Assembly (NCBI GenBank): GCA_013359135.1
Contig: JABWCN010000005.1
Coordinates: 1-64,000 of the forward strand
DNA length: 64,000 nt
From: Pseudobdellovibrionaceae bacterium
GTDB taxonomy: Bacteria; Bdellovibrionota; Bdellovibrionia; Bdellovibrionales; Bdellovibrionaceae
Direction of reading: 5' to 3'
The notes under the pieces were generated by a model. It was not told the DNA's origin and searched no databases. It saw nothing but the letters and a program-made list of their open reading frames with translations. This document shows positions 32,572 to 64,000 of this stretch, piece after piece. Positions within the stretch are counted from its first letter, which is position 1, and the number at the start of each line of letters is the position of its first letter. The translations under genes were made by a program, and so were the position numbers.

Positions 32572-34101
32572 TCAATTATTAGAATGTTTTCCAGCTTCCA
32601 CATTATTAATAAGTTGATTCATCTCAAGAGGTTGGAACTCGGGTTTAAAATCAGATGGAGCTTTATACAAGCAAATTCTATTTCCACCTTTTGATAGAAT
32701 AAAATTTCTAGCTTTTTCTGCTGTTTCAACTAAATGACTTACACTTCCAGATAAACTAGGAAACTCACTTACACCAAGGCTTGCTGTGATTTTCAATCCA
32801 CTTTCTGCCATGGTCTGAGTCTCTACTAAACGACGCAGTCTTTCAGCCCTTAAGGTTGCTCCTTTTTTATCACAATGAGGCAAGATCACTGAAAACTCGT
32901 TTTCATTAGTCCTACAAGTAAAATCATTAGTTCTACCTGTTTTATTAATTGTAGTCGCAATCGATTTAATAAGTTGATCTCTACTTGTAATACCTAAGGA
33001 TTTTTCAATATCTTCGTAATCATCAATTGAAATTTTAATCAAAGAAAGAGGTTGTTTTAATCTTCTCGATCTTTCAAACTCTTCCACAATTTTTTTGTCA
33101 AAAAATTTACGATTATAAATTTCTGTCATAGCGTCTTGAACTTCCAAGTGATCAATTTTTTTGGCAAGTGAAAAATATGAGTAATAAAGTTTAGTCACTG
33201 AAAGTAAACTTTTAAAATAATTGTGTCTGTGCAAATCAGCAATAGAATTATAAATAAATACACCTTCCAACTCTTCATTTTCTTTAATAACAGTGACTAT
33301 AGGATTTTGGTAATTAAACAATTTAGAAATTAAATTTCCCAAACTTGGAGGAATAAAATTTAGTTCTAAATTTTTAATTAAATCTCTAGTCTCTTCGGAT
33401 GCCAATGAACAGCCAACTCCTTGATTTTTCAATTGAGAAATCGGAGCCACCGAAGTTAGGATAAAAGAATTCATGGAAGGTATGTATTTAAAAAACAAAC
33501 AAGAAAACTCTTGAATCTTCTCAAACAACGAATTTACAATTTCGTCCTTATTTCTGGCCGCATTTAAATCAAAAATAAAATCAGCCACTGATATTTGACT
33601 GCTTGATTCTTGATCTTTTTTTAACCTAACAACTTCGCCTTCCATTAAAGAACTTTTTTCTTGAAATGTTTTTAGTTCTTGAAATAGCTGTTCATTCTTA
33701 TAGTTTAAATACAAATTTTCGCAACACTTATCTACAGACCACAAAACTTTACTATCAATTTGATTTTGAGTAGAGTTGATCACATCATGTAGTCCATATT
33801 GATCATATTCCCTTAATATTTGAAAATGCTCGTCTTTAGATAAAAAAATAATTTTAATTTCAGTACTTAAATTATTTATCTCCTCAACTATATCACTTAA
33901 GGGCTTACTTAAATCAGTAATATCTAAAATAACTATATGTGGCTGTGACTCTTTAATATGCGGAACCAAATTACTTTCATTTTCAATAAAAAAAACTTCA
34001 TAACCAGCTCTTCCCAAGGTAACTTTAAGACTTGGCCCTAGATTAATATTTTTAGAAAAGATCAATAAGCTAAACTGAGAACTAACTTCTCTTATATTCA
34101 T
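32572..34101 (-). CDS. Receiver-like protein with degenerate GGDEF domain
   Basis: 509 residues. A receiver-like domain (about 10-125, candidate phospho-acceptor D60), a coiled region, a GAF-like middle (about 170-310), then a GGDEF fold (about 320-490). The active-site GGDEF reads N399-E-N-E-F403, so cyclase activity is unlikely; it may act as a GTP or protein-binding output. Its ATG overlaps the stop of the upstream kinase by one base (TAATG), so the pair is a likely two-component system. The receiver lacks some typical acidic residues, so phosphorylation is uncertain. Confidence 0.82.
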   Translation of the reverse strand: MNIREVSSQFSLLIFSKNINLGPSLKVTLGRAGYEVFFIENESNLVPHIKESQPHIVILDITDLSKPLSDIVEEINNLSTEIKIIFLSKDEHFQILREYDQYGLHDVINSTQNQIDSKVLWSVDKCCENLYLNYKNEQLFQELKTFQEKSSLMEGEVVRLKKDQESSSQISVADFIFDLNAARNKDEIVNSLFEKIQEFSCLFFKYIPSMNSFILTSVAPISQLKNQGVGCSLASEETRDLIKNLELNFIPPSLGNLISKLFNYQNPIVTVIKENEELEGVFIYNSIADLHRHNYFKSLLSVTKLYYSYFSLAKKIDHLEVQDAMTEIYNRKFFDKKIVEEFERSRRLKQPLSLIKISIDDYEDIEKSLGITSRDQLIKSIATTINKTGRTNDFTCRTNENEFSVILPHCDKKGATLRAERLRRLVETQTMAESGLKITASLGVSEFPSLSGSVSHLVETAEKARNFILSKGGNRICLYKAPSDFKPEFQPLEMNQLINNVEAGKHSNN

Positions 34102-57588: not shown

Positions 57589-57681
57589 AAAGTTTAATAG
57601 ACCAGTTAAGTTTTTTCAATATCTCACTTAAGTATTGCTTTTTTGAGTAATTTCCATCATAGCAAGCACAAAGAGGTGACC

Positions 57682-59040
57682 ATGAAATTTTTAATCTTAA
57701 CTGTACTAGCTTTCCATTTAAGCTTAGCCCAAGTAGGAATAACTCAAAAAAACAGTAATCAAAATATTTTAACAGCAAATAGGCTTAGATTTTATAGCCC
57801 TAATGCTCAAGAAGCTCTTTTGAAGTACCAATTTACAGTTGAAGTAACTAAAGCTATTCAACCCACAGAATCAGAGTTTAAAACAGCTATTGAAAAACAA
57901 ATCACATTTCTTTTTGGGGCCTTTTCAAACCAGTATCGCCAAGCTGTTCCAAAGGCTGATCAACAATTTCAAATTTTGAAAGCTTACAAAGTTTCCAACA
58001 ACACTTGGAGGGCTGACTATCTTTATAATGGCTATATTTTGATCAGCCAAGGTCCTAACACTTATAGCTTCTATCTTCCAGTAAATCCATTTCAAGTTTG
58101 GCAAAAATCTTTAGCTCCAGGAAAAACTAATCCATACCCTTGTACTGACAGCCACTATGCCGTTGAAAAATACTTTTGGTATTTTTTCAACCCAAAATCT
58201 TATGGCTGCGAGCTAGTTGAAAATAAAGATTACGCTCAAGTTCAAGGTCAAGTCCAGTTTATCATTAATACCAAAGCGACTTACCCAGAATACGAAAGAC
58301 TTTTCGTAAATGGCGAACTAAATTTTCACATTTTATTTGGAATGGATAATTCAAGTTTAGATTGGAACCCTCAATCGTCTACAGATTTAAGTGCTCAATC
58401 CTACAGACAACTAAAAAAAGCTCTAGTTCAGTGGGGTTACACAAGTAGAGTTTGGTCAGCACAGGAAGTTAAAAACTTCTTTGGAAACTTAGGTTATTTT
58501 GGACAAAAGCCATACGTTGAAGAGTTATCAAAACAAACTAACAATGGCACAGTTAAGTACAGAATTTTCTTTGGAGCTTCTACTATTTATGAAGGACTTG
58601 CATTTCAAAAGTTTCTTTCTTATTCACTGCAAGACTCATCTATTATGCTGTATGCAGGTCATTCTGGTCTTGGTGAGTACTTAAATTTAGACCTTATGAT
58701 AAATAATAGTAATATTAATAATTCTCCTTTAAAAATGACAGCCAACCAATCAAGATATCAAATATACTTCTTCAATAGTTGCAGTTCATATCCATATTAT
58801 AACAGTCAATATTTCTCATTGAAGAAAACAGCTCAAGACCCTAAAGGTACAAAAAATTTAGATATAATTACAAATGGTTTATCTACTTTGTTTATAGCTA
58901 TTGCACCTTCATCTTATGCACTTATGCAAGCAGTTGAGATCTATGCTACTCAAAACAAGAAAACAAGCTATCAAGAGATCATCTCTAAAGCAAACTCAGA
59001 TAATTTGATCGGCATTAATGGTGATGAAGATAACAACTAG
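57682..59040 (+). CDS. Secreted caspase-like (clan CD) protein, inferred
   Basis: 452 residues from ATG 57682 with AGAGGTG 5 bases before it (the frame extends upstream to a TTG). Signal peptide about 1-16 (ends LSLAQ). The C-terminal third has H327 in LYAGHSGLG and C367 in YFFNSCSS, 40 residues apart after hydrophobic strands, the spacing of the His-Cys dyad in caspase/gingipain-type peptidases. The N-terminal 250 residues are unlike any family I know. A perfect terminator follows. Activity is inference from the dyad. Confidence 0.6.
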   Translation: MKFLILTVLAFHLSLAQVGITQKNSNQNILTANRLRFYSPNAQEALLKYQFTVEVTKAIQPTESEFKTAIEKQITFLFGAFSNQYRQAVPKADQQFQILKAYKVSNNTWRADYLYNGYILISQGPNTYSFYLPVNPFQVWQKSLAPGKTNPYPCTDSHYAVEKYFWYFFNPKSYGCELVENKDYAQVQGQVQFIINTKATYPEYERLFVNGELNFHILFGMDNSSLDWNPQSSTDLSAQSYRQLKKALVQWGYTSRVWSAQEVKNFFGNLGYFGQKPYVEELSKQTNNGTVKYRIFFGASTIYEGLAFQKFLSYSLQDSSIMLYAGHSGLGEYLNLDLMINNSNINNSPLKMTANQSRYQIYFFNSCSSYPYYNSQYFSLKKTAQDPKGTKNLDIITNGLSTLFIAIAPSSYALMQAVEIYATQNKKTSYQEIISKANSDNLIGINGDEDNN

Positions 59041-60180: not shown

Positions 60181-60798
60181 TTAATCCACCTCCGCAAATT
60201 GAACCAGGTCTGTCATGTAACCGTTAAAACAATCACTCCAATTTTTTAGATCTTCTCGTTGATCTAACGATTCTTTCAATTTTAGTAAAGCATGACGATA
60301 ATTAGCTTTTGCCGTATCATACGGACACTCCATAATATCAGCAATTTCTTTAAAGCTAAGGTCTTCATAAACTCTTAAAACCAAAGCTGTTTTCTGCCTT
60401 ACGGGTAGTTTATCCACTTCATCTTGTAGTTCATTGGCTAACGCTGTTTGCACTAGACTACTTTCTGCAACAGCTCCCACAGCAATATTTACATCATCAA
60501 TATCTGTGGTACCTCGCTTATTTTCTCTCAATTTATTTTTTGCAGTATTTACTGCAATTTGAAACAACCAACTTTTAAAGCTAGATCTGCCTTCAAAATG
60601 ATTGAGTTTTTCATAAGCCTTAATAAAACTCTCCTGAACTACATCCTCTGCAACATCCAAATCTCTCACAAATCTCAATGCCATCCTTAGCAAAGCTTTT
60701 TGGTGTCTCTTAACTAATTCAGAGTAGGCCCTTCTATTTCCAGAACGTACTTCTTGTATTAGCTCGTTGTCAGATGAAATGTTTAATTCCTTTCCCAT
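60181..60798 (-). CDS. ECF (RpoE-type) RNA polymerase sigma factor
   Basis: 205 residues. Region 2 (about 20-90, with RHQKALLRMALRF, AEDVVQESFIKAYEKL and FKSWLFQIAVN) and region 4 (about 130-185, VDKLPVRQKTALVLR, SFKEIADIMECP, TAKANYRHALLKLKE) are complete. The group is close to RpoE-like envelope-stress factors. It is paired with the anti-sigma gene one base downstream. The 427-base stretch before its start (60799-61225) should hold its promoter. Confidence 0.93.
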   Translation of the reverse strand: MGKELNISSDNELIQEVRSGNRRAYSELVKRHQKALLRMALRFVRDLDVAEDVVQESFIKAYEKLNHFEGRSSFKSWLFQIAVNTAKNKLRENKRGTTDIDDVNIAVGAVAESSLVQTALANELQDEVDKLPVRQKTALVLRVYEDLSFKEIADIMECPYDTAKANYRHALLKLKESLDQREDLKNWSDCFNGYMTDLVQFAEVD

Positions 60799-61225: not shown

Positions 61226-62146
61226 TTAAACCTGAGTAACTTTATTTCTTCCCGTTTGCTTAGAAGTATAAAGTGCCTTATCAACTCTCTCTAAAAGAGC
61301 TGCCCACTCCGTATCAGAACTTAGTTTTGAAGATACCCCTAAAGAAATAGTCACAGGAATACGTTTATTTTCAAAAACAAACTCATGATTTTGAATGGTC
61401 ATTCTGATTCTTTCAGCAATTTCAGCTGAAATTTTTGGTTCGGTACCAGATAATATGAGTACAAATTCTTCACCACCGTATCTGGCAAAAAAATCATTTG
61501 AACGGATTAATTTTGTTGAAATAACTTTAGCTAATTCTTTCAAAACAAAATCACCACAGGGATGACCATAAGAATCGTTAATTTTTTTAAAAAAATCTAT
61601 ATCAAAAATAATCACACTCATTGGCTCATTTAAAATTTCAGAACGCTTGATTGCTTCCGGACCTTTTTCAAGTAACGCTCCTTTTGAATAAGCTCCAGTC
61701 AATGCATCTCTTGTTGCTTTTTCAAATAAAGCTTGAGTAGTTAAACTTTCTATGTTTCCCGTTTCAAGGTATTTAAAAATGACATTTCCCGTTTTGACTT
61801 GATCATTATTTTTTAACTCACATAGAACCATAGGAGGAATAATTTGCCCATTAACCATAGTCTTATTAGTAGATCCCAAGTCGACAACATATATCGAATC
61901 CCCTTTGATATCTACTCTAGCGTGAGATCTTGACAAACTTTTATCATCAATAAATATATTTGACTCTATAGCTCTACCAATTACAAACCCGTCTTGTAAA
62001 TTCCACTGTTTTCCCTGATACCCTGCTGGTCCTATCAACACCACAAGTACAGGCGGAGAACTATCTGTTTTTGAAAGCTCTTTTTTTAAAGTGGTATCTG
62101 AAGCCACTATCGTTTTTTCATTTGTATCATCTTTAACAGGAACCAT
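61226..62146 (-). CDS. FHA-GGDEF diguanylate cyclase, DgcB-like
   Basis: 306 residues. A Thr-rich tail (T8, T12, T18, T19) precedes an FHA domain (about 33-125; GR58, SRSH 72-75, N94) and a GGDEF domain (about 145-306) with intact GGEEF at 224-228. The inhibitory I-site RxxD sits five residues before it (R215-S-N-D218). This is the layout of Bdellovibrio DgcB, where the tail Thr is phosphorylated and bound by the FHA domain to switch on c-di-GMP synthesis. Active cyclase is likely. The ATG lacks a strong Shine-Dalgarno. Confidence 0.93.
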   Translation of the reverse strand: MVPVKDDTNEKTIVASDTTLKKELSKTDSSPPVLVVLIGPAGYQGKQWNLQDGFVIGRAIESNIFIDDKSLSRSHARVDIKGDSIYVVDLGSTNKTMVNGQIIPPMVLCELKNNDQVKTGNVIFKYLETGNIESLTTQALFEKATRDALTGAYSKGALLEKGPEAIKRSEILNEPMSVIIFDIDFFKKINDSYGHPCGDFVLKELAKVISTKLIRSNDFFARYGGEEFVLILSGTEPKISAEIAERIRMTIQNHEFVFENKRIPVTISLGVSSKLSSDTEWAALLERVDKALYTSKQTGRNKVTQV

Positions 62147-62198
62147 GTGAAAATACTACCTTCTAAAAATACTTCATTCAATAATATAAAATAGTCCT

Positions 62199-63314
62199 CT
62201 ATGAAATAGCGACATCTTCTTCAATACGATAATATCCTCTCCACTCTTTAAGCCTAGCCCTAGGTCTTGAGCCATCATCTGGATACTCTATCAGAACAAA
62301 TGTTAGCTTTGTAATTCGCCCAAGAGAAACAATATCAAGCGAAGTTAGCTCCGTCCAAGTTCCAGTATTGAAAAACTCTTTATCATTTAACCACTGACGA
62401 TATTGATATACATGAGAATGGCCAAATACAACGGTATGAATACGATCATTTTTTAAAATTTTTTTTGCAGCTTCAACCAAATCTGGAAAAATAGCACTTT
62501 GAAAAAGAACTCTCAAAATATTTTTTAATGGCCATTGCCTTCGTTTATCTTTGATAAAAATAGTTTTAAATAAAAAATGCACTGATGAGTTGAAAGTTGA
62601 TAATAATAACCTAGTCTCATTAAATAGTACCCACGAAAACAACTTTGAGAACGGTCTAATCTTATCAATGAATGGATACTTTTGCTTAACTTTAATTACT
62701 AACTCTATAAAAAAATGACTCCCAAATGGTAAATTCAGAATAGGCTCAGCCAAATCTTTTTTTAAAAAAAACTTTTTTGGATCTATTTTGTTCGCTGCTT
62801 CGTGCATATGTCCATGCTCTACATGAAAACCATCAAAAAAATAAATAATATTTTTAAACTTAATTGGTGCTCCAATATATTGATTTAAATAACTCCGACA
62901 TGAAGGCCAAAGCATTGCTTGATCATGGTTACCTATAATATAAGTAATACTTTTACTGGGCTTACTAGCAAAGGTTGCCAAAGAATCAAAAACCTTTTTA
63001 TGACCTTTTATGATTTTTTTCAAAATTTCTAAAGAAATTGACTCAGTTAAAACTGTAAGGAAATGCCCCTTATAATCTACTTGCAAAAAATTTAAAAAAT
63101 CTCCGTTGATTATTAGTTCCACATCATAGTCTTTATAAATCCCAGTGCTATAATAAGATATAAACTCAACAAGCTTATCTCCGTAATAAAACTCCTCTAA
63201 AGAATTTAACCCACCATTTTCGAGAAAACGACCTTTACCCAAATGTAAATTACTTAAGACAATTTTAATCTTTTTTAATGGCTGTTGACTCTCTACATTT
63301 TCAGTATCACTCAT
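62199..63314 (-). CDS. LpxH/UDP-diacylglucosamine-pyrophosphatase-like metallophosphoesterase
   Basis: 371 residues from ATG 63314 (a TTG at 63320 would overlap the preceding gene). Calcineurin-type motifs NGDFLN, GNHDQ, VEHGH and GHSHVYQ are present. The first motif reads SNLHLG where SDLHLG is usual, so the metal-ligand Asp is Asn. The middle (about 180-270) has extra hydrophobic helices not found in short LpxH. Either the enzyme is changed or it acts on another phosphoester. It follows the coiled-coil gene by 2 bases and lies 52 bases before the FHA-GGDEF gene. Confidence 0.85.
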   Translation of the reverse strand: MSDTENVESQQPLKKIKIVLSNLHLGKGRFLENGGLNSLEEFYYGDKLVEFISYYSTGIYKDYDVELIINGDFLNFLQVDYKGHFLTVLTESISLEILKKIIKGHKKVFDSLATFASKPSKSITYIIGNHDQAMLWPSCRSYLNQYIGAPIKFKNIIYFFDGFHVEHGHMHEAANKIDPKKFFLKKDLAEPILNLPFGSHFFIELVIKVKQKYPFIDKIRPFSKLFSWVLFNETRLLLSTFNSSVHFLFKTIFIKDKRRQWPLKNILRVLFQSAIFPDLVEAAKKILKNDRIHTVVFGHSHVYQYRQWLNDKEFFNTGTWTELTSLDIVSLGRITKLTFVLIEYPDDGSRPRARLKEWRGYYRIEEDVAIS

Positions 63315-63316
63315 AA

Positions 63317-64000
63317 TCAAGTTGCTTTTTTATATTGAATTGGTTGAGATTCACTCTTTTCATCTACATGCGATAGAGCTAGCCTCAAAGTCCTTACAGT
63401 TAGTTTAATTTGATTTTGATAAGATTCTATAGTTTTATTCAATTCTTGGACTTTGTTTCGGTAAGTTTCAATTTCTGCCTTGGAAATATCATTCTTACGT
63501 TGCAATTCTAAAAGTAACTCGTCTTTTGACTTGATAACAGCTTGCTTTTCAGCCTTTAATAATTCTAGTCTGTTTTCCAGTTCTCTTTCTCTGATTCTTA
63601 TTTTCTTGAAGTCTGTCTTAATTCGTAATTCAAGCTCTTCAATTTTTTCTTTTAATTTAGAGTTTTCACTGTCTTTATACAATAGTGAACCTTTAAGAAT
63701 CATAAGCTCATTCTTAGATTCAGTTTTAATATCTTGATTCTCTCTCTCTAAATTCGAAATCTTAATTGTATACTCTTCAGCTTTATTTCTAATAATCTCA
63801 GCTGCAGTGATGATTTCATCGTTTTCCTGTCTTAATCTTTCAATTTCTTTTTCTAAATCTAATATTCGATTTTGGGCAATTCTTAAATTTTCTGCCTGAT
63901 AAAGACTTGCATCAATAGAAACTTGGCTAGAATTTCCCTTGAAGTTTTTCTGAGTTCCTATGAAAACTTTTTCTTCTTTTTCAACGACTGGCTCTAAGTT
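63317..64000 (-). CDS. Coiled-coil protein, 3' end (gene begins beyond the window)
   Basis: 228 residues are visible; the frame stays open to base 64000 with no start in view, so the 5' end is outside. The sequence is a long alpha-helical coiled coil with Glu/Lys/Ile/Leu heptads (for example EKEIERLRQENDEI) and no Cys or Trp. Its end touches the phosphoesterase gene, so the two are probably co-transcribed. Scaffold-type proteins look like this; the function cannot be read. Confidence 0.75.
   Translation of the reverse strand, partial: NLEPVVEKEEKVFIGTQKNFKGNSSQVSIDASLYQAENLRIAQNRILDLEKEIERLRQENDEIITAAEIIRNKAEEYTIKISNLERENQDIKTESKNELMILKGSLLYKDSENSKLKEKIEELELRIKTDFKKIRIRERELENRLELLKAEKQAVIKSKDELLLELQRKNDISKAEIETYRNKVQELNKTIESYQNQIKLTVRTLRLALSHVDEKSESQPIQYKKAT

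Follow-up and report, generated by a model that had tools for sequence, protein, structure and literature searches.

A DgcB-type tail-FHA-GGDEF cyclase gene in a Bdellovibrionaceae genome, its tail threonine, and a similar motif in the neighbouring Bd0739 protein

The dgcB locus and its product

The window, a stretch of 64,000 nucleotides on contig C15, comes from a 3.84-Mb genome of 94 contigs that is 99.98% complete. At 61226-62146 on the minus strand lies a gene for a protein of 306 residues, in which an N-terminal tail precedes an FHA domain (residues 55-118, 61793-61984; Pfam, E 8.1e-17) and a C-terminal GGDEF domain (residues 144-302, 61241-61717; Pfam, E 1e-38), all encoded on the same strand. 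Read on the plus strand, this interval is full of stops. The active-site motif GGEEF (residues 224-228, 61463-61477) is intact and follows the I-site RxxD (R215-S-N-D218, 61493-61504) after exactly five residues, FFARY, so that both readings of the first-pass annotation on this point stand. In an alignment of 18 DgcB-type proteins the GG[DE]EF and RxxD motifs of the window protein fall in invariant or near-invariant columns.

The assignment of this protein to the DgcB type, which the same annotation had made, is upheld by structural databases. Its best solved relative is DgcB of Bdellovibrio bacteriovorus (6HBZ; E 7.6e-124 over residues 31-304, far above chance), which is also the top fold match (64% identity) when the AlphaFold model (mean pLDDT 86.8) is compared by Foldseek. 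The window protein is 82-84% identical to the DgcB of five genomes of the same genus, and the closest named records belong to three Bdellovibrionaceae MAGs and Bdellovibrio sp. 28-41-41. It has the N-terminal FHA domain, C-terminal GGDEF domain and length (about 306-310 residues) of the group, together with the catalytic motif and I-site, the FHA cleft, the [DE]KT tail motif and the gene neighbourhood. Order of domains, length, GGEEF, RxxD, cleft and EKT tail motif are all shared with HD100 DgcB (Bd0742; PDB 6HBZ, 6HC0, 6HC1), whereas the tail of the window protein is one residue shorter after the threonine and the loop around D56 is changed. Among the features compared for the group, the one that it lacks is the hydrophobic residue at +3 of the docking threonine (V17 in HD100), which is Ala here. 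Judged by sequence comparison, the product is a true DgcB orthologue.

The neighbours of dgcB, all on the minus strand, are those of HD100. Downstream is an ECF sigma factor gene (60181-60798; Pfam and locus comparison) in the position of HD100 bd0743. Upstream is a conserved Bd0740-like gene (62199-63320) for a calcineurin-type phosphoesterase, whose Pfam match is below the cut-off here and above it in a relative from the B. bacteriovorus group; Bd0740 has been suggested as a phosphatase (PMC6733907). Two genes upstream of dgcB is the orthologue of Bd0739, a coiled-coil protein of 466 residues, the C-terminal part of which is encoded at 63317-64000 while the gene runs on to about 64718 of the contig. 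Unlike in HD100, the Bd0740-like gene and dgcB are not separated by a phosphoglucose isomerase gene in the window genome, the interval 62147-62198 being devoid of it.

The order Bd0739-like coiled coil, Bd0740-like phosphoesterase, dgcB recurs in 14 of 16 compared loci, seven of which have phosphoglucose isomerase between the last two genes, and the ECF sigma factor then follows dgcB in 11 loci. The two exceptions are G043, which is without DgcB, and G006, where dgcB is present and was missed by ORF picking. More widely, of the 89 genomes in which both genes could be located, 82 have a Bd0739 relative no more than 7 kb upstream of dgcB and in the same orientation; 90 genomes of the class carry both, one of them (G255) being left out of the count as the place of its dgcB is not listed. 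That DgcB and Bd0739 tend to occur together across the class (p 9e-4) was set aside as evidence, because losing a single contig removes both genes.

Some variants of this neighbourhood were seen. In order-level relatives (L153, L155, L156) an extra GGDEF gene, for 323-452 residues, is placed between the Bd0739-like and Bd0740-like genes, and G043, of the same order and 98% complete, has a Bd0739 relative and one kinase without a full DgcB relative. Within the window, a plus-strand ORF of 465 residues at 57643-59040 gives a Peptidase_C25 match below the Pfam cut-off (21.7 bits against 23).

The tail threonine, its registers and the FHA cleft

In HD100 DgcB, T14 within NLEKpTSIVASDT is reported as the docking residue, V17 (+3) occupies a pocket, T21 forms a bond with the carbonyl of A18, and in crystals the tail peptide sits in the FHA cleft (PMC6733907). 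The window tail contains T8, T12, T18 and T19, the four threonines listed in the first-pass annotation, and its motif, N9-EKT-IVASDT-T19, spans 62090-62122 on the minus strand. In a MAFFT alignment of 18 DgcB-type rows, including L022, the second FHA-GGDEF protein of its genome, T12 (codon 62111-62113) and T19 are invariant, whereas some genus mates have V or S in place of T8, which is for that reason rejected as the docking residue. Across 63 distinct DgcB proteins, drawn from 80 loci kept at identity >43% and length >280 with weaker relatives excluded, the residue at -2 of the docking threonine is D or E in 62 and that at -1 is K in 59; the motif picker requires a threonine, and the unbiased statement on T12 itself is therefore that of the 18-row alignment. 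The invariance of T12, with its acidic -2 and K at -1, makes it by homology the equivalent of HD100 T14 and very likely the switch threonine of the window DgcB, and by the same homology it would be phosphorylated in the host organism. A threonine conserved among relatives, the feature by which the earlier proposal of a tail switch could be checked, is thus present in T12 and not in T8. The counterpart of HD100 T21 is T18 or T19, depending on gap placement.

Since the window tail is one residue shorter after T12, its +3 position is Ala, not Val as in HD100. Two registers account for nearly all of the 63 distinct tails: a long, HD100-like one (T-x-h-h, with V, I or L at +3) in 40, and a short one (T-h-h-[ASG]) in 22, the window's among them, with one odd tail (L119, QFA). 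The hydrophobic +3 residue, missing in 22 of the 63, is consequently a trait of the HD100 peptide rather than of the whole group. Mapped onto a phylogeny of the FHA-GGDEF core, the short register requires at least five changes, each of the five forced by well-supported branches, so that the register shift is recurrent. Self-docking may be weaker in the short register.

The cleft itself is kept: R58, S72, R73, H75, S92, T93 and N94 of the window protein correspond to R61, S75, R76, H78, S95, T96 and N97 of HD100. When FHA columns were set against tail register in five contrasts, 14 columns differed in at least three, none of them a clear +3 pocket. The D56 loop of HD100 is described as partly occluding the partner's cleft in the crystal (PMC6733907); in the window's clade it is one residue shorter and its Asp is replaced, a difference that depends on the alignment. 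In the AlphaFold model, from which phosphate is absent, the tail is undocked and residues 1-18 have pLDDT <50. The +3 Ala and the changed loop were counted against the tail-docking explanation; the undocked tail of the model was listed with them, though at such low confidence and without phosphate it neither supports nor refutes a contact between tail and FHA domain.

In the tails and linkers of the other FHA proteins (nine in the window genome, seven in G035) only scattered [DE]KT was found, as in L258 (EKTIVG) and L264 (EKTMIG). An order-level relative has tandem FHA-GGDEF genes (L153, 8299-10174 of G052:C1), the second with the tail DEKTVIKTETT. A phosphorylated tail that binds its own FHA domain is also known from mycobacterial and corynebacterial GarA and OdhI, to which the HD100 protein has been likened (PMC6733907); these are without a GGDEF domain, and the likeness is one of mechanism.

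A motif in Bd0739 and a conserved kinase

Bd0739 is a top proximity partner of RomR, rated as direct by the POLAR assay, and gathers in polar foci as progeny exit the prey, while DgcB is in the same proximity set below the significance threshold (PMC11025332). A transposon mutant of Bd0739 is listed as negative for attachment, killing and rounding (PMC6561027). At E <= 1e-20, 91 of the 290 phylum genomes contain a relative of this protein, and every one of them belongs to the window's class, which numbers 98 genomes. The N-terminal half of these proteins is divergent, and in the window genome a motif search finds within it DKTIAV, encoded just beyond the window end (C15, 64044-64060, minus strand); genomes of the HD100 group have DKTVAV at this motif, and four genus mates have either DRTVAV or DRTIAV.

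In the N-terminal halves of 58 distinct Bd0739 proteins, a set from which loci L086-L140 (short flanks), one truncated protein and five duplicates were excluded, 44 copies of [DE]KT were counted where shuffles give 7.9 +/- 2.7, and 27 of [DE]KTxx[VIL] where they give 1.4, while [DE]KS, [DE]TK and TK[DE] are not enriched. Some variants are raised less strongly ([DE]RT, 18 against 3.8; [DE]AT, 23 against 9.0; [DE]ST, 20 against 11.8; KT[DE], 14 against 8.1). [DE]KT is carried by 33 of the 58 proteins, and in 15 this half is free of both [DE]KT and [DE]RT. A tighter pattern, [DE][KRA]T[VI][ASV][VIAL], sought within 110 residues of the coiled coil and slightly looser than [DE][KR]T[VI]AV, is found in 26 of the 58 (shuffled mean 0.08, maximum 2). 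In 22 aligned proteins chosen from the 58, with five more matching proteins outside the set, 17 have D at -4 and 17 have F at +6, against a regional mean of 4.5; as 21 of the 22 match the motif, it is these positions outside it that provide the independent evidence.

In the DNA of the window genome, [DE]KT[VIM]A[VIM] matches twice, in the Bd0739-like gene and, antisense to a frame of 513 codons, in an open stretch of 29 codons, and is thus coded once; the reversed control pattern has six matches. ORFs around dgcB at 16 loci contain fewer [DE]KT than shuffles (11 against 19.4; 132 ORFs). No statement of the Bd0739 motif or of its likeness to the DgcB tail was found in the open-licence literature searched, and the sections consulted of PMC11025332 and PMC6561027 do not describe phosphorylation or a DgcB-like motif of Bd0739.

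A candidate for the enzyme that would modify these threonines lies on the same contig. A conserved Hanks-type Ser/Thr kinase is encoded on the plus strand at 73715-75883 of C15, 11.7 kb from dgcB, and kinase and dgcB are within 15 kb on one contig in four of the five genus mates. Among 59 genomes, 20 (counted by eye) combine DgcB with exactly one Hanks kinase above the Pfam cut-off, and in the 19 whose kinase was assigned (all but G009) this is the same orthologue; the orthologues are 60-79% identical to that of the window genome over the catalytic domain. Inside the window's own genus the elimination argument fails: another kinase match, partial and of 40.8 bits, is present in the window genome, and three or four matches exceed the cut-off in its genus mates. 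One genome (G053, 93% complete) has DgcB with the tail motif and is without a kinase above the cut-off.

The HD100 kinase orthologue (G120) is at 3,060,157-3,062,181, and 21 ORFs lie between it and a GVNEF protein at 3,028,647-3,030,137. As CdgA is Bd3125 (PMC3271064), this spacing indicates that the conserved kinase is probably Bd3148. Bd3148 was proposed as the DgcB kinase by Meek et al., from similarity to a fused Sorangium protein (PMC6733907), the only place in the open-licence literature searched where it is named. The linker of the HD100 kinase ahead of its membrane segment itself reads EDKTIVTQTD. In 50 distinct linkers (59 loci, three without an ORF; 51 of 56 passed identity and linker length) [DE]KT occurs 23 times against 5.1 +/- 2.3 in shuffles and is carried by 21; that of the window kinase is DSKTVTK, not [DE]KT. 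The CdgA-like gene, dgcB and the kinase gene lie within 44 kb on contig C15; in G035 the CdgA-like gene is about 30 kb from the kinase gene and dgcB is far away.

A probable tail switch, competing readings and the question of predation

For HD100 it is reported that the phosphorylated tail docks onto FHA, that the GGDEF domain becomes active when the tail is kept in this place, and that binding of c-di-GMP to the RxxD I-site is inhibitory (PMC6733907). The window DgcB has the parts of this switch, namely the catalytic motif, I-site, FHA cleft and conserved T12. We consider it likely that this orthologue works by the HD100-type tail switch and that the conserved kinase acts on both T12 and Bd0739. 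In this scheme the kinase, probably Bd3148, would phosphorylate T12, the modified tail would dock on the FHA domain and activate the cyclase as in HD100, and c-di-GMP at the I-site would inhibit it. In species whose kinase carries the motif in its linker, that linker would be phosphorylated by the same kinase, which would also modify the neighbouring Bd0739 protein through the similar motif. The FHA domain of DgcB may read any of these phospho-motifs; with ten FHA matches in the window genome, a protein other than DgcB could be what reads the Bd0739 motif.

The main FHA ligand might instead act in trans, phosphorylated Bd0739 or the kinase linker recruiting the cyclase to the RomR pole in competition with the tail, above all in short-register proteins. 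The Bd0739 motif does offer the V at +3 that the window tail has replaced by A, the enrichment of [DE]KTxx[VIL] in the 58 Bd0739 proteins fits a ligand of this type, the genes are linked, and both proteins are in the RomR proximity set, albeit DgcB below significance. Such a ligand seems doubtful, given that the tighter motif is absent from 32 of the 58 Bd0739 proteins and any [DE]KT or [DE]RT from the N-terminal half of 15, that any of the ten FHA proteins could be the reader, and that it is the tail peptide itself that was seen in the HD100 cleft. An extended form, in which one kinase tags itself, the DgcB tail and Bd0739 at [DE][KR]T-hydrophobic sites, the tag on Bd0739 is read in trans by the FHA domain of DgcB, which thereby places and switches the cyclase at the RomR pole, and short-register tails give up part of their self-docking for a trans ligand, is a speculative and rather improbable proposal. 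The similarity between the motifs could also be coincidental, the one in Bd0739 serving, without phosphorylation, to dock RomR or a different protein of the pole. Conservation that extends past the kinase-type core, as with F at +6 in 17 of 22, and the direct partnership with RomR in the POLAR assay lend this reading some plausibility, but the enrichment of [DE]KT and not of [DE]KS or [DE]TK, and of a related motif in the kinase linker, keep it short of probable. The tail switch with a shared kinase is the reading preferred here.

The first-pass annotation had further taken DgcB as a hint that the organism may be a predator. This is not supported, as 271 of the 290 phylum genomes have a DgcB relative (E <= 1e-45), whose presence says little about predation; DgcB was therefore dropped as a predator marker. 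Single queries with a few other genes linked to predation gave a divided answer. A CdgA-like degenerate GGDEF protein with an RTND I-site and NENEF is encoded at 32572-34101 on the minus strand (protein comparison), and the Bd0739-like gene is present, a pair that is not specific since Bd0739 relatives occur in 91 of the 98 class genomes. For the Bd3459-type endopeptidase there is a weak partial match (3.1e-5, 33% over 78 residues). The HD100 Bd3459 query gives no full-length match in three genomes of the genus (weak partial in the window genome, G000, and in G001; none in G003) and none in G007, taken as P. exovorus JSS, whereas strong matches were obtained in eight of 12 genomes tested, B. 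qaytius (G034) among them. Periplasmic predators, unlike epibiotic ones, are reported to have Bd3459 and Bd3460 in synteny (PMC4686830), and B. qaytius is listed as epibiotic, one of two such (PMC11656739), which makes Bd3459 an imperfect marker. The host family does include genomes taken as B. bacteriovorus and B. qaytius; even so, with the near-ubiquity of DgcB and the endopeptidase result, it is improbable that dgcB here marks a predator that enters prey. The host may be an epibiotic predator, an invader with other enzymes or a non-predator.

Prey entry by Bdellovibrio requires DgcB. The present comparison shows that dgcB alone cannot serve as a predator marker, and it narrows the kinase by elimination in 19 genomes, with the [DE]KT-type tail motif as the likely consensus site of that kinase. 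Beyond what is known of DgcB, it adds the recurrent short tail register and the similar motif in the Bd0739 orthologue, and points to Bd0739, the neighbouring attachment protein, as a possible second target of the kinase.
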